Source of the DNA: a virus
Virus record (IMG/VR): IMGVR_UViG_3300005613_002492
Location: 1-40,738 of that record
Direction: 5' to 3' (one strand)
Length of the DNA stretch: 40,738 nt
Part shown: one piece after another, positions 1,891 through 23,719 of the stretch
How the letters are laid out: every line of letters starts with the position of its first letter
Position numbering within the stretch: position 1 is the first letter of the stretch
Notes under the pieces: model-generated
Database searches by the model: none
Told to the model about the DNA's origin: nothing
What the model saw: the letters and a program-made list of their open reading frames with translations, nothing else
Made by a program: the position numbers and the translations under genes

Positions 1891-3375
1891 CTATTCACTT
1901 AATTGTATATTATTACTTAAATTTAATACTTTGTTTTTTTGTAATGCCATTGTCTTAACAATGGGTTCAGACGCATCATAAGACACCACTTCTTTATATG
2001 TCTTAAATCCTGATTTAGAAATTTTTATTGTAAATGGTCCTCGTGGGTCAACTGGTTTTGAAGTTCCTACAACGTGATATTGTTCTCTAGTAATAAATTG
2101 TTCTGTAATATCCCCATTAGAATCTGTATTTGTATCAACTACCTTTGTTCCGTCAACATCATATATTGAAAGATTGGCACTATTTATTGGATTTCCTGAT
2201 TCATCTACAACATTTAAGTTAAATGATATTTTGTCATACAGATAACAATCATTTGAACCAGCTGCTAATATTGAAGAAAAAATAGAATCAATTAAGGTTA
2301 AAGATTGTGTACAACTAATAAAATATACTACCGCAGAACCTTCAGTATAAAGTCCTCTCGCTGTAGCTGATTGAGCACCAACTAACTGAAATACTCTTGA
2401 GCCACCTAACATATTTACATCAGTAAATGTTCCAGCACCACTACTAAAGGCGTTATCAAATTTAGTCATTGTAACCTTAGTCATTGAACAGTTAGCGCCA
2501 CTCAAAGGAATAAGGTTTCTAAATTTTGATATATTACAATTTATCAATGCTCCGGCACTATAATTTGCTCCAATGAAACCATAACTACCAGAATAATAAG
2601 AAGCATATATATAGCTAAAATTTGTACTATAAGCGTTAAGTGTTCCCCATACAATATTTGAAAGCCACGTATTACTAAAAATTAGATTGCATCCAGAGGC
2701 AGTCAACTGACTTCCTGATAAAGTTCCAAATTGCCAATTATAATTCGTGTTTGAATATAACGCATCTGCAAAAATAATAGTTTTATCTACATCTTCCCAA
2801 TACATAGCAGAATGTCCAACCAAATATGTATTAACCAAATAAACGTGTTCGCTAATCTTTTGTATAACACCCCACCCAGCGGCAACATCAGCATTATACA
2901 AATCAACAATAGAAAATTTATCACTAGAGGTACTACCAGAAAGTGTCAAAATACCATGTGCATCATTATATAAATCTAAATAACAATTATTACCAACACC
3001 AGATGTACCGTCATCAACAAAGGTAACAGTTCCACCAGAATTACAAGCAGCGTCTGTTGGCATATATCCAATAGGTGGAAAATATCCGTTTAGAAAACCG
3101 CCAGATGATGTAGCCCTAAATATTCTATAAGACACAGCCTCCCCAACTGGAATATCAAACGTAATGGTCATACTTTTATTTGTCGCATCAGCCGTTCCTG
3201 AAAACTCATCACTTGCTTTACTTTTCCCATACCATGAATAAGAAACTTGTGACCCTTTTGTTGCTACCACACGATAATAATAAGTTACCCCAGCAGTTAA
3301 GCTACCGCCCGCAGTTGGTGTTGCTACGCAGTTTATTGGTTTGCTTATATCTGTAAAACTATATCCTTTAGCCAT
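1891..3375 (-). CDS. Putative tail fibre or receptor-binding protein
   Basis: A 494-residue protein. Residues about 10-100 look like a fibronectin-type or Ig-like beta domain (VTYYYRVVATKGSQ, SYRIFRATSSGG). The middle (about 120-380) is rich in short beta strands, N, S, G, T and aromatics (YASYYSGSYGFIGANYSAGA), suggesting a beta-solenoid. Residues about 390-480 (VVDESGNPINSANLSIYDVDGT) resemble a carboxypeptidase-regulatory-like beta sandwich, common in adhesive proteins. The N-terminus overlaps the end of the upstream 81-residue gene by 8 bases. A surface-binding role is inferred from architecture; no enzymatic residues are seen. Confidence 0.6.
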   Translation of the reverse strand: MAKGYSFTDISKPINCVATPTAGGSLTAGVTYYYRVVATKGSQVSYSWYGKSKASDEFSGTADATNKSMTITFDIPVGEAVSYRIFRATSSGGFLNGYFPPIGYMPTDAACNSGGTVTFVDDGTSGVGNNCYLDLYNDAHGILTLSGSTSSDKFSIVDLYNADVAAGWGVIQKISEHVYLVNTYLVGHSAMYWEDVDKTIIFADALYSNTNYNWQFGTLSGSQLTASGCNLIFSNTWLSNIVWGTLNAYSTNFSYIYASYYSGSYGFIGANYSAGALINCNISKFRNLIPLSGANCSMTKVTMTKFDNAFSSGAGTFTDVNMLGGSRVFQLVGAQSATARGLYTEGSAVVYFISCTQSLTLIDSIFSSILAAGSNDCYLYDKISFNLNVVDESGNPINSANLSIYDVDGTKVVDTNTDSNGDITEQFITREQYHVVGTSKPVDPRGPFTIKISKSGFKTYKEVVSYDASEPIVKTMALQKNKVLNLSNNIQLSE

Positions 3376-3613
3376 TTAATTCATTTAATAAATCATTTAA
3401 CTTATCTATTTCAATTTGAATAGATGACATTCTTTGATAAAATGGGTGGTTTTCTTTTGCCCAAGCAATCAGTTCTGTGTCTTTAGGTTTTGGTTCTAAT
3501 AATACATCTTGTAAATCTTTTATTTCTTTTTTCAAAGCATTAACATCAATAACCCTTTCCTCGGTTTTTATTTCTTTGACTGTGTCTTTGTCTATTGTTT
3601 CGTATGTTATCAT
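3368..3613 (-). CDS. Small helical protein, 81 aa
   Basis: ATG start (MITYETIDKDTVKEIKTEER). Most of the protein is predicted coiled coil, with leucine/isoleucine heptads (VNALKKEIKDLQDVLL and IQIEIDKLNDLLNEL). It overlaps both neighbours by a few bases, showing tight translational coupling inside the fibre gene cluster. It could be a trimerising chaperone or connector for the fibres on either side, but no family is recognised. Confidence 0.6.
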   Translation of the reverse strand: MITYETIDKDTVKEIKTEERVIDVNALKKEIKDLQDVLLEPKPKDTELIAWAKENHPFYQRMSSIQIEIDKLNDLLNELNG

Positions 3614-11671: not shown

Positions 11672-12301
11672 TTAGTTGTTAATTCTTATAGGCGGTTTCG
11701 CCTTGATATAATAAGCGTGTTTAGTTTGTAAGCCTTTGTCCCAAGCATCTTTTGGCATCTTCATAATAACTATATCATAAAATCCATTCTTTTTCAATAG
11801 CTTAATCCAATTATGAGCAAAGTATCCTGTTCTTAAATATATATAAAGTCGTTTATACCACTTAGGTTCATAGAACTCAAACAATACTACCTGCTTTCTT
11901 GGTATACGCTTTAACTCTTTTAGGCATTTCTTTATCTTAAATGGTCCAACATAAATATAAGTCATATCAGCTAATAATACATCACAAGACTTGTCTGACA
12001 TTAAAAGGTCTTCAGCTGAACCTACTCTAAATATACCGCCCTTAAAGGTTTTCTCACAAAACTCAATAGCATCTTTGTTGACATCTACTCCACCTAACTG
12101 CTTATTGCCTAGTACAGATATAATATTCTTTAGATTAGCACCACCACCCACACCTATTTCCATTAAAGAGTGCCATTCAAAGGTATTAAGTACTGTTGCT
12201 AGTATATATCTATGCGGATGATTCCAAGTTGAAAGATAAGACTTGTCCCAATCTATAGACCTATTTTTCCAGTATTTAGTTTGTGATTTTGTTGTTTTCA
12301 T
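11672..12301 (-). CDS. Class I SAM-dependent methyltransferase
   Basis: The ATG at 12301 overlaps the stop of the preceding gene (ATGA); a TTG four codons earlier is less likely. About 209 residues. The SAM-binding motif I is MEIGVGGG, followed by LGGVDVNKDAIEFCEK (motif post-I acidic Asp) and VLLADMTYI in the position of motif IV. It belongs broadly to the Methyltransf_11/25 type. Next to glycosyltransferase-like genes and a nucleotide-sugar pathway, a likely job is methylating the sugar or glycan. The actual acceptor is not visible from sequence. Confidence 0.75.
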   Translation of the reverse strand: MKTTKSQTKYWKNRSIDWDKSYLSTWNHPHRYILATVLNTFEWHSLMEIGVGGGANLKNIISVLGNKQLGGVDVNKDAIEFCEKTFKGGIFRVGSAEDLLMSDKSCDVLLADMTYIYVGPFKIKKCLKELKRIPRKQVVLFEFYEPKWYKRLYIYLRTGYFAHNWIKLLKKNGFYDIVIMKMPKDAWDKGLQTKHAYYIKAKPPIRINN

Positions 12302-13215
12302 CTTCTTAACCAATTATAAAGTTGACTATAATATCTTAGTTTCTTTTGTACTTTAAAAGGAAGTTTCCTTAATAATATCTTACGTAGGCTCTTTTTTAAC
12401 TTTAATATATCAACATTCTCTAAACCAAATGTCCTTATAAACCCCCTATCTACTCTTTCACCTTTAAACGGATGTTCGTAATAGGTACTAATATTCTCAG
12501 AGTGAGTGCCAACAAGAAAGCCTCTTTTGTCAATCTGCTTATAATTAAGGCAGTCTTTAACCCATTCATGGCTAGGAAGCGGTGTGCCAACAGGATAACC
12601 AGGTATTGCTACCTTAGTAGCTGTATAATTAGCGTGGTCAAGTGGTTCTATGAATATCTCTTTAGGAAATTTAATAGTATAGAAGGGCGGGTTTGTTTTA
12701 GGGTTATATTCTGAAACATCTAAATTAAAGTAATTACAGATATATCCGTGCTTATATCCGACTGCTTCATAGTTCTCTAACTCTCTCTGTATCTCATCTA
12801 CTGCACCAGCATAATAACAGTCGTCTGAGGGTTGTATAGTCATATAAACATAATCTACATCACCAATATCATCTAACAACTCACCAATAGTGTTGTGTAA
12901 ATTACCTACTAGCCTAGACTTAGCTTCTTCTAACGGATATTTATCGTCGTAAAAACAAATTCCACTAAAAGTAAATATATATCTTAGTCCTGCTTCTGTT
13001 AAATAATCGGCTAAATCAATTACTAAGGGATGGTTGCGTTGAGCCTGGGTAAAGCTAATCCAAACTGTAAAGTTCTGATTAGTCTGTGCTTGTAGACTAG
13101 GCACAACAAACTGTTTAAATATTTTAAGTCTGTTCTTAAACCAGCGTTCTCCTCTAAATCCACCATATAAGCCTAAACCTGTAAAAGGTACATACATGTA
13201 ATGTTTTATGTCCAT
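12298..13215 (-). CDS. Putative rhamnosyltransferase-like glycosyltransferase
   Basis: 305 residues. The segment FKQFVVPSLQAQTNQNFTVWISF (about 33-55) matches the start of the putative rhamnosyl transferase family, where several residues after it a sugar-nucleotide fold begins. The stretch VDYVYMTIQPSDDCYYAGAVDEI contains an acidic cluster in the place of the DxD metal-binding motif of GT-A enzymes. The C-terminus is basic and may contact membrane. It overlaps both neighbours, consistent with one operon. Family recognition is moderate; donor and acceptor are unknown. Confidence 0.6.
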   Translation of the reverse strand: MDIKHYMYVPFTGLGLYGGFRGERWFKNRLKIFKQFVVPSLQAQTNQNFTVWISFTQAQRNHPLVIDLADYLTEAGLRYIFTFSGICFYDDKYPLEEAKSRLVGNLHNTIGELLDDIGDVDYVYMTIQPSDDCYYAGAVDEIQRELENYEAVGYKHGYICNYFNLDVSEYNPKTNPPFYTIKFPKEIFIEPLDHANYTATKVAIPGYPVGTPLPSHEWVKDCLNYKQIDKRGFLVGTHSENISTYYEHPFKGERVDRGFIRTFGLENVDILKLKKSLRKILLRKLPFKVQKKLRYYSQLYNWLRR

Positions 13216-14012
13216 GGGTATTTGTTTAAATTGTTAAGATAATACTCTCTACCTTCTTTGTTAGGTTCTTTTGGTATATTGCCTATATTTTCAGGGAGTA
13301 TAGTATGCGGATAAGGAATAATAGATACTGGCCATTGTTCCATCAATACACTTTTGGCTACAATTTCACTAAATCCTTCTAGCGGTATCATCCTAATACA
13401 ACCTTGCATTTCGGCTATCTCTTTATTCATTTGTTCTTTAGGAACTCTCCCATGTATTATAACATTTTTATTCAATGTTTTAAATGGCTTTGTATTGCCG
13501 TAAAGGTGAAACTCTAAGTCTGAATTTTTACTAGCTATCTTATCAATTTCATACCAACCATAAAGTTCAAAGTCATCTCCACTTACACTTGCATAAAACT
13601 TACCGTTAGGCTTATAACTTGGTTTTATCTTATTAACGTCTCCTAAATAAGATGGAGTTAGAACAGATTCTATTCCCATTTCTGCTAAGGCTTGTCTCTC
13701 TGGTTCGTTTTCACACCAATTCTCGCAGTTCTCATTAAGCCATTTAGCTATTCCTTTATTATCTATCCTTATATCACCTGTATCGTCTAACCAGTAACCA
13801 TTCTGCAGGTGGCGAATATCCGAACCACACCAAAAAACATACCGCTTTCCTTTGTGTCGCCAAATACTGTAGAAATCAGGCAATCCATAACAACCAACAA
13901 ATACAGTAGCCTGACCAATATCCATTTTAGGATTATAAGTCTCTAAATTCCAGGCTTCTTGAAAGGTTCTCTCAAATCCTCCGCCTAATGATGGTGCTAC
14001 TCTTATCTTCAT
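13206..14012 (-). CDS. GT-B-like glycosyltransferase
   Basis: I chose the ATG at 14012 (MKIRVAPSLGGGFERT), preceded by CTAAAAATATG context. An upstream GTG at 14042 is open but would run through a terminator-like hairpin. About 268 residues. GT-B features: an N-terminal Rossmann-like half with VFVGCYGLPDFYSIW and RYVFWCGSDIRHL, and a C-terminal half with FHLYGNTKPF, VIIHGRVPKEQM and GCIRMIPLEGFSEIVAKSVLMEQWPV, the usual glycine/glutamate donor-binding region of GT4-like enzymes. It likely transfers the sugar made by the neighbouring genes. The final residues overlap the next gene by 10 bases. Confidence 0.6.
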   Translation of the reverse strand: MKIRVAPSLGGGFERTFQEAWNLETYNPKMDIGQATVFVGCYGLPDFYSIWRHKGKRYVFWCGSDIRHLQNGYWLDDTGDIRIDNKGIAKWLNENCENWCENEPERQALAEMGIESVLTPSYLGDVNKIKPSYKPNGKFYASVSGDDFELYGWYEIDKIASKNSDLEFHLYGNTKPFKTLNKNVIIHGRVPKEQMNKEIAEMQGCIRMIPLEGFSEIVAKSVLMEQWPVSIIPYPHTILPENIGNIPKEPNKEGREYYLNNLNKYPWT

Positions 14013-14024
14013 ATTTTTAGAAAA

Positions 14025-14047
14025 GGGGAGCATTTTAAACACTCCCC
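14025..14047 (-). terminator. GGGGAG/CTCCCC hairpin with short T-run
   Basis: On the minus strand GGGGAG and CTCCCC pair across an 11-base loop and are followed by TTTTCT. The hairpin lies between the Gfo/Idh gene and the GT-B gene, immediately before the latter's ATG. It could terminate or merely punctuate the transcript. Confidence 0.5.
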
Positions 14048-14054
14048 GTGTTAA

Positions 14055-14831
14055 TCATTTAGACATCAAATACAAATCATGCACTAATTTTAATGATTTG
14101 TACGCTTCTTTTAGGGGAATACCATTACCATCAATGAAATGCAAATAAGCATCTTTGTGTAGGTCTTCATAAGACAAGTTGTCTTTGTTGGATAGATTGA
14201 TTTCTTTACCATCTACCAAAATACTACGATTTGCTTTCTCTCGGCTATCAACAATTTCAATATGGAAAGTACCGCTACCATTTTCAAATAACACTTTACC
14301 TGTAGCCAAAGCATCTGTAATGCTAACATTTTCAATATATTTTGGTTTTCCAAGCAAAAAAATCAAAAGGTCAATATAGTGGATTCCAAGATTAAATAAG
14401 ATTCCACCAGATTTAACAAAGTTACCTTTCCAACTATCCCAATAATGCTCATCTCTGAACATAACAGCTTTAACAAAAACATCCTTTGCTTTCAAATTCC
14501 TTAAAGCGGGATGGTACCTTAATTGTAAAACAGTATTAACCCCATCAAGGTTTTTGATTCCGTTAATGCTTAATGGTTTTTCACAAAGAACTCTTTTACC
14601 ACGCAGCAATGCTTCTCTTGCCATTGTGGCGTGCAAATAATTTGGCGTGCAAATTACAACAACATCAATATTTTCAAAATCAGGATGATTATACATCTCT
14701 AACCAATCAGAAAAATCAGGTTTTTTGTCTAAATCATTATCACAAGTTAAATAAACTTCGTGACCTAAATCTTCTATTGCTTTTTTATGACGATGGTAAA
14801 TGAAACCTTTGCCAATTATTGCAAATTTCAT
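14055..14831 (-). CDS. Gfo/Idh/MocA-family nucleotide-sugar oxidoreductase (WlbA/WbpB-like)
   Basis: 258 residues. The N-terminal Rossmann fold has FAIIGKGFIYHRH, a glycine-containing NAD-binding turn that keeps the Y-x-R-H of UDP-GlcNAc(A) 3-dehydrogenases. CEKPL at 83-87 carries the conserved lysine of the family, and GIHYIDLLIFLLGKP holds the catalytic-region histidine/aspartate. The family oxidises sugar hydroxyls, commonly making a 3-keto sugar for an aminotransferase, which fits the DegT gene nearby. Unlike most neighbours it has a clear AAAGGAG site 6-7 bases before ATG and is bounded by spacers on both sides, hinting at separate acquisition. Confidence 0.8.
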   Translation of the reverse strand: MKFAIIGKGFIYHRHKKAIEDLGHEVYLTCDNDLDKKPDFSDWLEMYNHPDFENIDVVVICTPNYLHATMAREALLRGKRVLCEKPLSINGIKNLDGVNTVLQLRYHPALRNLKAKDVFVKAVMFRDEHYWDSWKGNFVKSGGILFNLGIHYIDLLIFLLGKPKYIENVSITDALATGKVLFENGSGTFHIEIVDSREKANRSILVDGKEINLSNKDNLSYEDLHKDAYLHFIDGNGIPLKEAYKSLKLVHDLYLMSK

Positions 14832-14867
14832 GATATTCTCCTTTCTATGATTAATTATTATTATCCA

Positions 14868-15296
14868 TTATGGATTTTTTACTAAGTTTATAAATTCTAC
14901 CAGTACTGGATGTGGTTTAACTTTGCTTGATTGGTATTCAGGGTGAAACTGGGTAGTTATAATCTTTCCGCTTCTGAATGTATCAGGATAATCCTTTACC
15001 TTGTATTCGTGCCAATAACTTTCATTATTATGCAATCCAACATTTAACTCTGGTAATTTCTCTAACTCATATCCGTTGAATATAGCCATTATCTGATGTC
15101 CAAAACATATTCCCAATAACGGTATATCGTCTGCTATAGCCTTTCCAACTACTTTAAGGGCTTCATCTACCATTTCCTTTTTGTTCTCTCCTGGCCAAGA
15201 GCCAGCTATTATATAACCCTCATAACTTTCCCAGTTAGAATCAATCTCATCTAAAGCCCTGGTTAAACTTGTTTTAAAATCACCGTATATTTCCAT
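14868..15296 (-). CDS. Class I glutamine amidotransferase (glutaminase) subunit
   Basis: 142 residues, shorter than the roughly 190-200 of complete class I GATase domains; the missing part is at the N-terminus. The nucleophile elbow LGICFGHQ gives Cys64, and QFHPE gives His118 and Glu120, so the Cys-His-Glu triad is intact. The form resembles the CTP-synthase/HisH glutaminases. The gene overlaps the N-acetyl sugar amidotransferase gene by 17 bases; such enzymes need ammonia from a partner glutaminase, so the two very likely act as a complex. Confidence 0.82.
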   Translation of the reverse strand: MEIYGDFKTSLTRALDEIDSNWESYEGYIIAGSWPGENKKEMVDEALKVVGKAIADDIPLLGICFGHQIMAIFNGYELEKLPELNVGLHNNESYWHEYKVKDYPDTFRSGKIITTQFHPEYQSSKVKPHPVLVEFINLVKNP

Positions 15297-16293
15297 TTTT
15301 TATTATATTAGCTATTTTAGGATACCAATCTTCTTGTTTAAAGTCGCTGTGTTCGTGCTTAGGATAATTCATTATGTGCTTAAACAGCGTCTTAGGATAC
15401 TCTGGCTTCTTCTCTAATATTTTAAGGGCTTTGTCCCTAGTAATTATTCCAGCTACTATCAGACTTGATAGGTGGGCTTTACGTTTATCAATCCCCCATT
15501 TCTTCGGTAAATAATAGTTTTGAAACCATTTAGTAAACTCTGACTCTTCGTGTTTATCGCCATAATCTTCCCAACCATACTCTTTAATCAGCATTTTTTT
15601 AGCTTCAATCGGATTGTAATCAAGATAATCTAGTAAGTAAACAGTTTCAATTCCGTATGTATGCTTATAATCGTTCCATAACCAAGTACTACAAAGCGGT
15701 AATCCTTCTAATTCTTCGTTCCAAACCGTTTTGTAAACATCTTTAATATGTTCTACATCTCTGGCTTGATAACCCCAACTCTCTGGCATAATACTCTCTC
15801 CGACTGCGTTTCCGCCTGATAATATCCATTTAATACCATATTCTTGAGCCAGTTTATAGGTTGTAGCCATTATAATATGGTCGGTTGGTATCTCTATATT
15901 TTTAAGTCCAGCCATCACAAAGGCTTTCTGTAGCTTGTTAAACTTGTCTAAGTCTATGGTCTCTCTGTAAAATGGTACTTTTAGTTTTTCTACTATCTTT
16001 AAAATATTCTCATCACTTACTCTTGTATTCCAGCCATTATCAACACTAAAACAAAAAGGTCTAAGCCCACGTTTAACAGCTTCGTGTAAAACTGTACTAC
16101 TATCTATCCCACCAGAAAGACCGATAATACAATCGTATTTATCTCCTTTGATTTGTCCAAGCATGGATGACAAATCTAAGTCTTTGGTTTCTTCTAGTGA
16201 TTGTTTAGCTCTTTCGCAGAAATTACAACCGTCTTTAGTAAACTCTATTTCTTCTGCGGTTTCATCCATCACACATTTACTGCATGTTTTCAT
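15280..16293 (-). CDS. N-acetyl sugar amidotransferase (PseA/WbpG-like)
   Basis: 337 residues. An N-terminal zinc-ribbon pair (CSKC at 4-7 and CNFC at 23-26) is followed by the PP-loop ATP pyrophosphatase motif GLSGGIDSSTVLH (about 58-70) and the downstream SGGNAVGESIMPESWGYQARD. These define the family that turns an acetamido group on a sugar into an acetamidino group, as in pseudaminic or B-band O-antigen sugars. Ammonia would come from the adjacent glutaminase. No HisF-like partner is seen. It overlaps the DegT gene by 17 bases. Confidence 0.88.
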   Translation of the reverse strand: MKTCSKCVMDETAEEIEFTKDGCNFCERAKQSLEETKDLDLSSMLGQIKGDKYDCIIGLSGGIDSSTVLHEAVKRGLRPFCFSVDNGWNTRVSDENILKIVEKLKVPFYRETIDLDKFNKLQKAFVMAGLKNIEIPTDHIIMATTYKLAQEYGIKWILSGGNAVGESIMPESWGYQARDVEHIKDVYKTVWNEELEGLPLCSTWLWNDYKHTYGIETVYLLDYLDYNPIEAKKMLIKEYGWEDYGDKHEESEFTKWFQNYYLPKKWGIDKRKAHLSSLIVAGIITRDKALKILEKKPEYPKTLFKHIMNYPKHEHSDFKQEDWYPKIANIIKNGNIR

Positions 16294-17404
16294 AACTTTT
16301 GATTGTTTTAATTATATAATCAACTTCAGCTACAGATAACTCAGGATATATTGGAAGTCTAGCTTGTTCTCTAGCCAATTTTTCAGTTACAGGCAAGCTA
16401 GTGTCTAAAACTTCATAACCTTTTAGCTTATGATTAGGAATAGTATCTCTAATTAAAAGTTCAATTCCATTATCATTCATATATTTTTTAAATTTGTCCC
16501 TGTCCTTAACTCTGATTATAAACTCTTGCCAAGTTTCTCCACTCTTGCGACTAGGAAGTATAATGTCTAGATTTCTTAATCCTCTAAGATATTTTTCAGC
16601 AATTATTTCTCTAGCTTTAATAATCCAATTAATATCTTTAAACTTTACATTCAACATAGCGGCTTGGATATTATCCATACGAGTATTGTGTCCAAAATCC
16701 CAAGTTTCTGGTTCTGGCAACTCTACACCCAATAAAGCATTTTGTGTTATGTTCCAATGATTTCTAAGTAGTAAAATAAGTTCGTAAACATCTTTCCGAT
16801 TTGTAACTATCGCACCATTATCACCCCAACCACCCATCATCTTAGGGGATATAAAAGAAAAAGTACCAACATCACCAAAAGTTCCAGCCATTTTAGAGTT
16901 TTGTGTACTACCTAATGCCTGACAAGCATCTTCAATAATAGGAAGCCCAATTTGCTTTAAGGCATTCATATCAACCATAACTCCTGATAAATGAATTGGA
17001 AGTATAGCTACAGTTTTATCAGTAATAGCCTTTTTAACTAAATCAACATTCATTACACAGGTTTCTTCATCTACATCTACTAGTACTGGCTTCAACCCTG
17101 CGTGTATAATCTCCTGTATGGGCGCTATAAAGACATGTGAGACCGTAATTATCTCATCTCCATCCTTCCATCCATTTATCTTCTTTAACGCCTCTATGGA
17201 CAATTTAAGGGCATCCGTACCAGAATTGACAGCTACTGCATATTTAGCACCAGTAAACTCGCATAAGTTATTTTCAAATTTATCTACATCTTCTCGTAAA
17301 ACAAAGTCACCATTCTCCATACATTTTTGAAAAGCTGTGTTTAAATCGTCTTTTCTCATCTGATAATACCTGCGATATGAATTATTTATAAAATTTACTT
17401 TCAT
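16277..17404 (-). CDS. DegT/DnrJ/EryC1-type PLP sugar aminotransferase
   Basis: 375 residues, the usual length. Visible motifs: AVNSGTDALKLSI (about 58-70) for the PLP phosphate, EDACQALG at 158-165 for the aspartate contacting PLP, and TFSFISPKMMGGWGDNGAIV with the PLP-binding lysine at about 188. These enzymes move an amino group from glutamate to a keto-sugar nucleotide. Substrate would be the 4-keto sugar from the PglF-like dehydratase or the 3-keto sugar from the Gfo/Idh enzyme. The stop and start overlap on both sides indicate co-translation. Confidence 0.9.
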   Translation of the reverse strand: MKVNFINNSYRRYYQMRKDDLNTAFQKCMENGDFVLREDVDKFENNLCEFTGAKYAVAVNSGTDALKLSIEALKKINGWKDGDEIITVSHVFIAPIQEIIHAGLKPVLVDVDEETCVMNVDLVKKAITDKTVAILPIHLSGVMVDMNALKQIGLPIIEDACQALGSTQNSKMAGTFGDVGTFSFISPKMMGGWGDNGAIVTNRKDVYELILLLRNHWNITQNALLGVELPEPETWDFGHNTRMDNIQAAMLNVKFKDINWIIKAREIIAEKYLRGLRNLDIILPSRKSGETWQEFIIRVKDRDKFKKYMNDNGIELLIRDTIPNHKLKGYEVLDTSLPVTEKLAREQARLPIYPELSVAEVDYIIKTIKSYENMQ

Positions 17405-18213
17405 ATGATATAAAAATTATCTTTTTTAATTGCTCTCTCCTTTTCTTCTTTTGTCATTAATTGTTCGGTTAATGTTTCCCCTGGTCTAATCCCTATAATC
17501 TTTGTCGGATAGCCAGGATAATATTTTTCTTTAAAATCCATTATGTTTACAGGTTCACCCATATCAAGTATATAAATCTGTCCGTTCTTTCCTTCTTGAG
17601 CTTTAATTACAAGTTTACAAGCATCAGGTATGGTCATCATATAACGGGTCATATTAGGGTCGGTTATAGTTATTGGTTGTCCTTCCTTTACTTGCCTTTC
17701 CCATATCTCTAATACACTTCCCGAACTTGCTAATACGTTTCCAAATCTTACAGCTACAAATTGTTCTCCAGCCCTAGTTATAAGTCCTTCAGCACACTTC
17801 TTAGTTATCCCCATTATACAGTTAGCATTTACCACCTTATCGGTAGAGATGAAGACAAACTTCTCTAAACATTCCCAACGCTTTGCTTCCGATATTAAAT
17901 TAGCTGTTCCTTGTATGTTAGTGTCTATGGCTTCTTGTGGGTATTCTTCGCTTGGAGTTACATTTTTTAAGGCGGCGGTATGAAATATCACTTGCGGTTT
18001 AAAGTCTTCAAATACATCAGCTAAAGTTTCTTTGTTCCGAATATCACCAGTCCTACTATAAACCCAATATCCCTTTTCTCTTAACTGTTCTCTTAACTGA
18101 TACGTCTTGGTTTCGTCTATGTCTATTAAAAATATTTTATTGTCAGGTGCAAGTTGTCTAGCAAGTTCACTGCCAATACTCCCTGCTCCAGTTATTAAAA
18201 TTCTTTTCTTCAT
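17401..18213 (-). CDS. SDR nucleotide-sugar 4,6-dehydratase (CapD/PglF-like)
   Basis: 270 residues. The Rossmann NAD(P) motif is GAGSIGSE at 9-16. The active site STDKVVNANCIMGITKK (123-139) has Thr-Asp-Lys and a Met where most SDRs have Tyr, the pattern known from PglF/CapD UDP-GlcNAc 4,6-dehydratases. Only the catalytic domain is present, without the membrane segments of full CapD. It would make a 4-keto-6-deoxy sugar for the DegT aminotransferase. The start is ATG; it is the first of five overlapping or closely spaced sugar genes. Confidence 0.87.
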   Translation of the reverse strand: MKKRILITGAGSIGSELARQLAPDNKIFLIDIDETKTYQLREQLREKGYWVYSRTGDIRNKETLADVFEDFKPQVIFHTAALKNVTPSEEYPQEAIDTNIQGTANLISEAKRWECLEKFVFISTDKVVNANCIMGITKKCAEGLITRAGEQFVAVRFGNVLASSGSVLEIWERQVKEGQPITITDPNMTRYMMTIPDACKLVIKAQEGKNGQIYILDMGEPVNIMDFKEKYYPGYPTKIIGIRPGETLTEQLMTKEEKERAIKKDNFYII

Positions 18214-18240: not shown

Positions 18241-19251
18241 TTATAATCTTATAAAAGCTGCGCCTTTTGTTTTTAATGATTTATTTAATTCTTTTTCGTT
18301 TTTAGGAAATTCTACCCTTATGTTTGGTAGATTTTTAAGCAAGTCCCATTCATTTTCTAACCCCAAGAAATTATGACTAAACCCTAAGAAATCTGCCGCA
18401 CCTGTTCCTATAATTTTTACATCTAACTTGTTATAACACACCTCATCTCTTATAAATTCATACGGTCTACATATAGCAAAAACCGCACCGCTGTATACAT
18501 AGGGTTTCTTTCCTCCTAAAGCCAAACCAGCGGCCACTCCTACCATATTTTGTTCAGCCACACCACAATTTATATATTGCTCTGGGTATTTTTCAATAAA
18601 TGGTTCTAACTTATTATAGCCCAAATCTCCTGTTAAGAGCATAATATCCTTATCTGTCTCTGCTAATTTCATTAGAGCTTTTACAAAATCTACTCTTAAA
18701 TCAACTTTCCATTTAATAAACTCTACTACCTGTTCTTTAGTATTGTTTTTAATACCGTACTTCTTATGAAAATCATTATGGCATTTTTTACAAAAAGTTA
18801 TTCCGTTGTTTATATCCAATCGCAAATCCTTGTTTTCAGCAAAATTTGTTAAATGATGGGCGTGTAATTTGTCACCAACACTCTTACATTTCTGACAAAT
18901 ATATTTATCTCTTTTATAAATATTATTACGCCACAACTTGTATTCCACACTTTTTCTAATCTTTTCATTTGTCGGAGTAATTCCGCCTTTCCAAGAATGA
19001 CATTGTTCTCCTCTAGGAGTATTTTCTTTTGTCCTTAATGATATTTTTCTTCTTATTTCCGCCGAATGTTTATGATATGTTTTTTGTCGTGGTAACTTTC
19101 CTTGGCATACCCGACTACAAGTTCGTGCTGTTTCTTCTCTATATTTTCTAACAGTATATTCTTTGCCACAAATCTCACATTCTTTTTTAATGTGTTCTTT
19201 TTTATTCCAGGAACTAAAACCTTTAACAAATTGTCCTTTTTTATTTCTCAT
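18241..19251 (-). CDS. HNH endonuclease fused to transketolase pyrimidine-binding domain
   Basis: One uninterrupted 336-residue frame. Residues 1-50 carry a small Cys-rich unit (CEIC, TCSRVC); 85-90 the CHSWKGG motif common in HNH homing enzymes; 119-157 the HNH core with CxxC (119, 122), His132-His133 and CKKCHNDFH (154-161). From about 183 the sequence becomes the C-half of transketolase: DLRVDFVKALMKLAETDKD, GDLG at 198-201 and the catalytic Glu223 in NCGVAEQNM. The usual transketolase C-terminal domain is absent after the pyrimidine domain. The start overlaps the stop of the transketolase N-half (ATGA). Both halves look intact, so this seems to be an endonuclease inserted at the junction. 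Confidence 0.82.
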   Translation of the reverse strand: MRNKKGQFVKGFSSWNKKEHIKKECEICGKEYTVRKYREETARTCSRVCQGKLPRQKTYHKHSAEIRRKISLRTKENTPRGEQCHSWKGGITPTNEKIRKSVEYKLWRNNIYKRDKYICQKCKSVGDKLHAHHLTNFAENKDLRLDINNGITFCKKCHNDFHKKYGIKNNTKEQVVEFIKWKVDLRVDFVKALMKLAETDKDIMLLTGDLGYNKLEPFIEKYPEQYINCGVAEQNMVGVAAGLALGGKKPYVYSGAVFAICRPYEFIRDEVCYNKLDVKIIGTGAADFLGFSHNFLGLENEWDLLKNLPNIRVEFPKNEKELNKSLKTKGAAFIRL

Positions 19252-19898
19252 AATTCACTTAATGCTTGATTTAATTGTTCTTCTGTAAGATTACAGTAAT
19301 GCGAATGCACCGAATCTTCTAGAAAAGACACCCCTGCTCCTTTAATAGTTTTTACATTTTCAAAATTAGGAAATGTTTTCTTATAAAAATCAAAAGCAGT
19401 ATCTAAATTAAGTACATTATTAGTTCTATCAAGAGCCTGTATTCCATTATTATCACAAATTACATATAGATTATTAAGTTTATGTTGTCCAGCAAAAAGA
19501 GCCGCTTCATAAGTTACACCCTCATTTAATTGTCCATCTGATATTAAACAATAAACATTTCTATTTCTATCAGCTAGTGCTAAACCGACAGCCACTGATA
19601 AGCCCATACCGACAGAGCCTATACTATGTATAACTCCTGGTACTTCCTTAGAACACTCTGGATATTGTCTTAAATACTCTACTAACTTTTCTTTAGAAAA
19701 ATATCCCAATTCTGCCAAAATGGCATAGTAGCAAGAACTTCCACTGGCTTTAGAAAACAAAAAAACATCATCAGGTTTGATGACGTTATCAAATAAATCA
19801 ATTAGTATATCTACACAAGATAAAGCACTGCCTAGATGGCAAGCTCCTGCTTTGAATGATGACTGTAATATATCTCTTTGTATTTGTTTTTTATTCAT
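19248..19898 (-). CDS. Transketolase N-terminal half (thiamine diphosphate-binding)
   Basis: 216 residues, somewhat short for a split transketolase N subunit (commonly about 270). Conserved features: CHLGSALSCVDIL (about 19-31), IHSIGSVGMGLSVAVGLALA, and the ThDP/metal motif SDGQLNEG ... CDNNGIQ, where the usual GDG is SDG. It ends in HSHYCNLTEEQLNQAL, the normal end of this half. With the fused C half it could form a ketol-transferring enzyme that extends or branches a sugar. Within a phage sugar operon it is unusual. A repeated leader motif (TTAATCATAAACC) precedes the ATG. Confidence 0.85.
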   Translation of the reverse strand: MNKKQIQRDILQSSFKAGACHLGSALSCVDILIDLFDNVIKPDDVFLFSKASGSSCYYAILAELGYFSKEKLVEYLRQYPECSKEVPGVIHSIGSVGMGLSVAVGLALADRNRNVYCLISDGQLNEGVTYEAALFAGQHKLNNLYVICDNNGIQALDRTNNVLNLDTAFDFYKKTFPNFENVKTIKGAGVSFLEDSVHSHYCNLTEEQLNQALSEL

Positions 19899-22081: not shown

Positions 22082-22204
22082 TTATGTCATTAAAAAAACC
22101 GAGAGGCTTGGAAAGTGCCTATCCCTACAGATAGGGACTACAGGTTGGTTACTGTATCTTTCCAAACCTTTCGGTTCTTTTAATAATATCTGTATTTTAG
22201 GCAT
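22082..22204 (-). CDS. Putative 40-aa leader peptide of the replication gene
   Basis: Starts with ATG after AAAAAAAAT, the start context common in this genome, and reads MPKIQILLKEPKGLERYSN on to ...SLSVFLMT and TAA, stopping three bases before the replication gene's ATG. It runs through the whole structured leader, so ribosomes on it would open the stems. Coding is plausible but unproven; the composition is not distinctive. Confidence 0.35.
   Translation of the reverse strand: MPKIQILLKEPKGLERYSNQPVVPICRDRHFPSLSVFLMT
22092..22182 (-). promoter_or_regulatory. Three-way-junction leader ending in terminator (attenuator candidate)
   Basis: On the minus strand AAAAGAACCGAAAGGTTTGG (from 22182) pairs with the segment ending CCAAGCCTCTCGGTTTTTTT (to 22092), about 24 positions with one mismatch and two G-U pairs. 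Inside lie two hairpins, CTATC/GATAG (22120-22135) and TACAG/CTGTA (22139-22155). The 3' arm runs into seven T's directly before the replication gene. The layout is that of a riboswitch or attenuator. Confidence 0.6.
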
Positions 22205-22908: not shown

Positions 22909-22943
22909 ACCTCTTATATTTAATTATTTAGTTTATTTAGTAA

Positions 22944-23175
22944 TTAACTTAATCTTGGTTAGGTAAGGATTTATTAATAAATAAGTTGAAACCCACTCAA
23001 TTACGGATTTGCACCGCTGTGCCACTATAGGAATAATTGGCGTTTTATTTCAACTTTTTGTATCCACCTGGTTTATCTATTAACTACACCCTACAAAGCA
23101 ATCCAATGTACATTTGGCTACTAACTACTAATTTTGTATGCGTTATTATTCCGCCACTAACCAAGATAAAATTAA
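22944..23175 (-). ncRNA. Structured RNA candidate with closing stem and pseudoknot
   Basis: A 319-base gene-free stretch holds a 232-base element. Its ends, TTAACTTAATCTTGGTTAG (22944-22962) and its partner at 23157-23175, pair over 19 positions with two mismatches. Inside, AAGTTGAAA/TTTCAACTT (22983-22991 with 23048-23056) and GGAATAAT/ATTATTCC (23030-23037 with 23145-23152) cross each other, forming a pseudoknot. A GCAC/GTGC hairpin (23011-23022) and CCAATG/CATTTGG (23103-23117) add to it. On the minus strand a TATAAT at 23188-23183 would start transcription at the first base of the closing stem. No known RNA family is recognised. The strand is inferred. Confidence 0.5.
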
Positions 23176-23191
23176 CTACATTATTATACTA

Positions 23192-23208
23192 AAAATTGAA
23201 TAGGATAT
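23192..23208. repeat. 17-bp perfect inverted repeat, left copy
   Basis: AAAATTGAATAGGATAT, exactly the reverse complement of 23574-23590. The pair brackets the small gene at 23228-23557. The match stops cleanly at both ends. Confidence 0.9.
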
Positions 23209-23227
23209 TTTAATTAGCTAATTAAAT

Positions 23228-23557
23228 TTATTTATGGGCGATAGCTTCTTTCAAAGCATTTACTGATTTTTCTGTAATATCATCTGCCATACTACCAATG
23301 CCGTGCATTGAACTTTGCACATAGATGCTAGCAAATTTTTCTGCAAGTGATTGAGCAAGTTGATAATTTGATATGGCTGTTAAGCTTGCTGTTTCGTCTG
23401 TATAATTTGCTCTGTAAAAATCTTTTGTTTTTTTAGGTATTAAACCTAAGTCGGATAAAGTATATCCAAACGCTTTAGCGATTTTACGAGCCAGTGCTGG
23501 GTCAATCAAACTTCTTGAATACTCCAACATAAGTTCCATAGCTTTAGCTTTAGTCAT
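23228..23557 (-). CDS. Putative small regulator at the early/late switch, 109 aa
   Basis: I prefer the ATG at 23557 (MTKAKAMELMLEYSRSLIDP), which has AAAGGA upstream; an ATG at 23575 is also open. The segment LARKIAKAFGYTLSDLGLI could be a helix-turn-helix, followed by a helical C-terminal half (YQLAQSLAEKFASIYVQSS). It is the first gene after the minus-facing member of the divergent promoter pair, the normal seat of a phage repressor or Cro-like protein. A perfect inverted repeat flanks it. DNA binding is inferred, not shown by a clear family match. Confidence 0.5.
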   Translation of the reverse strand: MTKAKAMELMLEYSRSLIDPALARKIAKAFGYTLSDLGLIPKKTKDFYRANYTDETASLTAISNYQLAQSLAEKFASIYVQSSMHGIGSMADDITEKSVNALKEAIAHK

Positions 23558-23573
23558 ATAGTTGTGTCCTTTC

Positions 23574-23590
23574 ATATCCTATTCAATTTT
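23574..23590. repeat. 17-bp perfect inverted repeat, right copy
   Basis: ATATCCTATTCAATTTT, reverse complement of 23192-23208. It lies in the 5' leader of the small regulator gene, between its promoter and its ATG. Confidence 0.9.
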
Positions 23591-23608
23591 CAATGTACTT
23601 GTAAATAC

Positions 23609-23637
23609 ACTATAGCATACTTTAATAATTATTGCAA
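23609..23637 (-). promoter_or_regulatory. Minus-facing divergent promoter
   Basis: On the minus strand TTGCAA (23637-23632), 17-base spacer, TATAGT (23614-23609), followed by GTATTTACAAG. It drives the small gene at 23228-23557 and probably the RNA candidate and membrane proteins beyond. Confidence 0.7.
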
Positions 23638-23670
23638 TATTAGCTTGTGGATAACTTTGTATAAAAACTA

Positions 23671-23699
23671 TTGCATTTATTTAATAGTTATGCTATACT
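23671..23699 (+). promoter_or_regulatory. Plus-facing divergent promoter of the early operon
   Basis: TTGCAT (23671-23676), 17-base spacer, TATACT (23694-23699), then GTATTCACAAG. It matches the minus-facing promoter closely from TATGCTATA through ACAAG, so one regulator could bind both. It drives the genes from 23821 onward. Confidence 0.75.
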
Positions 23700-23719
23700 G
23701 TATTCACAAGGTTAAAAGA

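Follow-up and report, generated by a model that had tools for sequence, protein, structure and literature searches.

Candidate cistron clamps: covarying leader–trailer helices around small phage genes

The analysed window is the whole 40,738-nucleotide (nt) stretch of the virus record IMGVR_UViG_3300005613_002492 from IMG/VR (positions 1–40,738), and the feature considered here lies at 23,192–23,590. The sequence AAAATTGAATAGGATAT is found at 23192–23208 on the plus strand and as its exact reverse complement at 23574–23590; no third copy occurs in the window, even with up to 3 mismatches allowed. The perfect 17-bp inverted pair of the preliminary description is therefore exact and unique in the window, and its two other placements also held, in that the arms enclose a 109-residue gene (open reading frame (ORF) at 23228–23557, minus strand) and leave the promoter-like site (23637–23609) outside. 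On the minus strand, which corresponds to the mRNA of the gene, the pair is 24 nt long, comprising 21 Watson–Crick pairs, 2 G–U pairs and 1 mismatch, the 5′ arm ending 16 nt before the ATG and the 3′ arm starting 19 nt after the stop codon. In the order of the message, the parts of the unit are as follows.

23632–23637, minus strand: −35-like hexamer TTGCAA, outside the arms (pattern match only)
23609–23614, minus strand: −10-like hexamer TATAGT, TG-extended, with a 17-nt spacer (pattern match only)
23574–23597, minus strand: 5′ arm, TACATTGAAAATTGAATAGGATAT, in the mRNA leader, with its perfect core at 23574–23590
23567–23572, minus strand: AAAGGA, Shine–Dalgarno (SD)-like, adjoining the 5′ arm and unpaired (from sequence and folding)
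23228–23557, minus strand: ORF of 109 amino acids, MTKAKAMELM...EAIAHK, with no family match and one homolog (L004, 50%)
23209–23226, minus strand: small hairpin TTTAATTAGCTAATTAAA between the stop codon and the 3′ arm (from sequence, folding and alignment)
23185–23208, minus strand: 3′ arm, ATATCCTATTCAATTTTTAGTATA, with its perfect core at 23192–23208

The two hexamers form a putative sigma-70-like promoter, TTGCAA-17-TATAGT with an extended TG. The ORF, with its ATG at 23557 and stop at 23228, encodes a protein with charged segments that returned no match in PHROGs, Pfam (significant matches) or PDB searches, and its AlphaFold model (pLDDT 61) was too poor for a structure search. Nothing relevant came from searching the window with Rfam and ARAGORN or for tmRNA; neither a known antitoxin RNA family nor an antisense RNA was seen in it.

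Several neighbouring features merit description in their own right. Directly after the 3′ arm, a structured RNA of approximately 260 nt (22930–23190, minus strand; folding z −4.05) contains the tRNA-like pieces GTGGCGGAATAATAACGC and GCGGTGCAAATCCGT without an Rfam or ARAGORN match, and part of the 3′ arm could pair instead with its flank, a possible switch. An RNA of similar look is present in L051, a locus that was considered as a clamped gene and rejected as a structured RNA. On the other side of the gene, divergent promoter-like sequences at 23598–23639 and 23669–23710 form an imperfect 42-nt inverted repeat, both with GTATTYACAAG downstream of the −10. Elsewhere in the window, hairpin-rich intergenic RNA at 22122–22180 has the terminator-like ending CCGAGAGGCTTGGAAAG...CTTTCCAAACCTTTCGG TTCTTTT; an HNH endonuclease domain is joined to a transketolase pyrimidine-binding domain at 18241–19898 (minus strand) beside the N-terminal half of a transketolase, perhaps because a homing endonuclease split the gene; and a sugar biosynthesis cassette occupies 12298–18213 (minus strand), comprising DegT aminotransferase, Polysacc_synt_2 epimerase, GFO/IDH/MocA oxidoreductase, QueC-like and rhamnosyltransferase-like genes.

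No other perfect inverted pair spanning up to 1 kb in the window reaches the 17 nt of this one, the runner-up being 12 nt. When the whole window was shuffled 300 times by a Markov model matched to local composition, 4 shuffles contained a pair of at least 17, and the probability of finding such a pair blindly is approximately 1 in 75, or about 1%. A helix equally good within 60 nt of the start and stop of the gene was obtained in 0 of 10,000 shuffles. The earlier statement that the pair is unlikely by chance thus stands for its position near the gene, but across the whole window it is less extreme than had been implied.

The sole homolog found for the 109-residue protein (50% identity) is encoded at a locus among the viral contigs, L004, where the gene neighbours differ from those of the window. 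Further homologs were found neither in annotated phage records or viral contigs beyond L004 nor in the sampled genomes of the likely host group (379 and 45), and a tblastn search of plasmids with the L004 homolog returned no more than weak, partial matches in Rhodococcus. L004 carries a 27-nt inverted pair at the same two places, with gaps of 16 nt to the ATG and 13 nt from the stop, and 0 of 10,000 shuffles matched it; its arm sequences are unlike those of the window. The gene has its own promoter-like site (TTGACA-17-TATACT), a counterpart of the TTTAATTAGCTAATTAAA hairpin (a similar TAATT..AATTA) and a terminator-like hairpin after the arms.

MAFFT, which is blind to pairing, aligned the 5′ arms of the window and L004 without gaps; a 2-nt gap that it placed in the 3′ arm was removed, and changes were counted on the ungapped 23-nt register common to both helices. 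Eight of the 23 positions in the 5′ arm have changed, and all 8 changes are compensated in the 3′ arm, while slid registers gave 0–1 compensated changes and none of 200,000 column permutations reached 8. As read from the alignment, this is strong covariation, though drawn from two sequences in this family. Conservation of the pair in relatives, proposed as a check in the preliminary description, here takes the form of pairing kept with different letters, the changes being matched between the arms. Because the L004 homolog carries the arms and the covariation, chance is ruled out as the origin of the pair, the roughly 1% blind probability notwithstanding.

The architecture is not confined to this family. 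A first scan of start/stop pairs, in loci chosen by terminase or capsid similarity, flagged L077, where an unrelated 108-residue gene is bracketed by an 18-bp pair with gaps of 17 and 10 nt; the terminase of this phage shares 67% identity with that of the window. At such a score and geometry approximately 0.03 cases are expected by chance; since L077 could still be a chance case, its homolog L137 (43% identity) was tested and found to carry a 26-nt pair with gaps of 17 and 20 nt. Between the two, the stretch from arm to ATG is nearly identical, and the arms have diverged in both length and sequence, the two sides changing together. L186, a shorter relative of L077 recovered by profile search (E ~5e-4, two-sequence profile), has a perfect 12-bp pair with gaps of 23 and 7 nt. 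The second family thus offers three testable sequences, each with private arms; a further homolog, in genome G428 (L225), is uninformative on arms because the contig ends before the 3′ flank. In L137, the clamped gene has a long hairpin (AATTAGTTTTTCTTCACC...GGTGAAGGAAAATT; 3365–3450) immediately following its 3′ arm.

An extended scan covered 212 loci (2.7 Mb, 23,972 start/stop pairs), with the expectation taken from swapped flanks, and returned 8 pairs scoring at least 39 against 0.4 expected. Two of the eight are one palindrome artefact (L095, rejected despite its high score because the arm is itself a palindrome), and L004 and L137 had entered through homology. Newly found were two adjacent small putative cistrons at L205, each with its own private arms (26 and 30 nt), the two stems being separated by 6 nt. 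Five reference phages, lambda, T7 and P22 included, held nothing above a score of 33. Neighbourhoods differ among the units, and in L077 and L137 the gene is perhaps inside an operon, so that the unit may not always be a whole mRNA. A member of the second family lies in a 1.1-Mb genome, and the sampled genomes of the group are mostly 0.4–1.1 Mb; these small sizes, the sole basis for the assignment, suggest Patescibacteria as the host group. The recurrence around unrelated genes, as judged from a small number of loci, is the new part of the present findings.

Full-length folds computed without constraints form the enclosing helix in the window, L004, L137 and L205, where both stems close side by side, and the predicted mean pairing probability of the arms is 0.84–0.97 in four units. 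The helix stands 16–17 nt before the ATG and 10–20 nt after the stop (four units). Predicted SD accessibility with and without the 3′ arm is 0.82/0.81, 0.42/0.45, 0.57/0.60 and 0.62/0.42 in four units, and in L137 the SD region is predicted to be more open when the 3′ arm is present. According to these models, the 3′ arm would never lower SD accessibility appreciably.

Complementary arms are expected under RNA and DNA readings alike, and covariation taken alone would also fit a hairpin at the DNA level. An intramolecular pairing between 5′ and 3′ untranslated regions (UTRs) calls for a leader and a 3′ flank that are complementary on the message strand, which is what is found, and the pairing is kept by compensatory change (8 of 8 here, and in the second family too). 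On the message strand, G–U pairs number 2 in the window, 3 in L004 and 2 in L137, against 1, 1 and 0 A–C juxtapositions; this excess (7 to 2) favours RNA, although it is suggestive only. The preliminary description had offered two readings, an invertible DNA segment and an RNA stem joining the leader and the 3′ end of the message. The RNA stem receives strong support from the covariation with L004 and from the like arrangement at other loci, while the longer arm, the placement relative to the ribosome footprint and the recurrence had been missed. In an invertible segment, recombination between the arms would flip the gene away from its promoter, as perfect inverted repeats around a gene with the promoter outside would suggest. 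We nevertheless prefer an mRNA helix because of the G–U pairs on the message strand, the placement at start and stop, and the change of both arms, in step, between homologs. The arms of L004, L137 and L205 are moreover imperfect, with G–U positions, and the gene keeps one orientation, co-directional with DnaD-like and terminase genes in both the window and L004. As had been noted at the outset, no invertase is recognised, and neither an integrase nor an invertase is among the PHROGs or Pfam matches of the scanned proteins, though a host enzyme could still act; altogether, inversion is scarcely credible.

Arms acting as DNA-level protein-binding sites (an operator pair with looping) or as the ends of a mobile cassette (terminal inverted repeats) are a somewhat less remote prospect, still improbable. 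Units of promoter, arms and gene do occur in different neighbourhoods with arms ending near the cassette edges, and the protein of L004 gives a weak match to HTH_3 that stays below threshold. Yet homologous genes carry different arms, unlike terminal repeats or operators recognised by a single protein family; the two adjacent L205 cistrons each have private arms; and the arm sequence is absent elsewhere in the window, which rejects an operator or dispersed repeat. That the arms are the two strands of an RNA helix is, in our judgement, very likely. Within RNA, the finished 3′ end could fold onto the leader and block ribosome loading, with protein made only from nascent or trimmed message, and the 5′ arm indeed ends beside the SD. 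Such silencing has precedents in icaR, where 5′–3′ pairing has effects through RNase III and on ribosome loading, and in hok (PMC3868564). Here, AAAGGA lies outside the helix with its predicted accessibility unchanged when the 3′ arm is removed, and in four units the arms stop 16–17 nt before the ATG, as if avoiding the ribosome site. Sequestration of the SD or start by a 3′ element, as in icaR and hok, is not predicted, the SD and AUG lying outside the helix; nor was the combination of small hydrophobic toxin and antisense RNA typical of type I toxin–antitoxin systems seen. A helix standing next to the SD might still get in the way of 30S landing; self-silencing nonetheless appears unlikely.

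We therefore return to an RNA helix, long-range and conserved, within the mRNA of the gene itself; we term it a cistron clamp, meaning a long-range stem that encloses the SD, ORF and stop. Once the 3′ arm has been transcribed, the message would close into a loop holding all three. Separated by 16 nt from the ATG downstream of its 5′ arm and by 19 nt from the stop upstream of its 3′ arm, the helix would not need to be melted by initiating or terminating ribosomes, and the cistron would stay translatable; that ribosomes could use it unmelted argues against simple SD masking and for a structural or processing role. Duplexes of 24–27 bp would be long enough for RNase III and would thus act like a pre-rRNA leader–trailer stem. 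The nearly perfect duplex of at least 20 bp expected of an RNase III stem is seen in five units (24, 27, 26, 26 and 30 nt), L077 (18) and L186 (12) falling short in length. A clamp would mark its cistron for excision from longer transcripts, protect or set its ends and half-life, and insulate it from its neighbours. As SD accessibility is nearly independent of the 3′ arm, our analysis favours processing, stability or insulation, taken together, over silencing of the hok/icaR type. Taken with its role, the clamp seems to us on balance probable, the pairing being well supported and the function inferred. The broader proposition is an even call: that clamps recur in phages, probably including phages of Patescibacteria, around small genes of unrelated families, as private, covarying leader–trailer helices that avoid the ribosome site, the message being a closed loop or excised, rRNA-like, from polycistronic transcripts.

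Should the pairing form in cells, it would provide a simple rule by which phage messages that are closed into loops or excised could be recognised from sequence, and would make the roles of RNase III and circular mRNA folding in phage gene control directly testable. It also illustrates that what textbooks take as the mark of an invertible segment can belong to RNA instead.

Phase-variable invertible segments such as hin and gin likewise have a gene bracketed by inverted repeats; here no recombinase was found, and the arms vary between homologs and contain G–U positions. The precursors of 16S and 23S rRNA have leader–trailer processing stems cut by RNase III, and the likeness extends to a long helix flanking the RNA to be released, to a sequence that varies while pairing is kept and to possible side-by-side arrangement (compare L205). 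The RNA enclosed here is instead a protein-coding cistron, and RNase III cleavage is presumed by analogy. The product of hok is a toxic peptide, and an antisense RNA accompanies it; the short phage or plasmid message resembles ours in that the 3′ end pairs near the 5′ end, and differs in that our gene encodes a 109-residue protein with a predicted accessible start region and no antisense RNA seen. Few examples of long-range pairing over a whole bacterial cistron are known; in these, the SD is usually covered by a short motif. A non-exhaustive literature search yielded icaR of Staphylococcus aureus and, through it, hok, discussed beside icaR as a fold-back precedent (PMC3868564), with nothing comparable in phages. 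The icaR mRNA is the closer parallel, as a 3′ UTR element pairs with its own leader across the whole ORF and forms an RNase III substrate; there, a 7-nt UCCCCUG motif pairs with the SD itself (PMC3868564). The present helix spans 24–27 nt, spares the SD and begins near the stop codon, and its private arms covary. It is full-length, lies just beyond ribosome reach, is maintained through compensatory changes and recurs around small phage genes of unrelated families, even adjacent ones.
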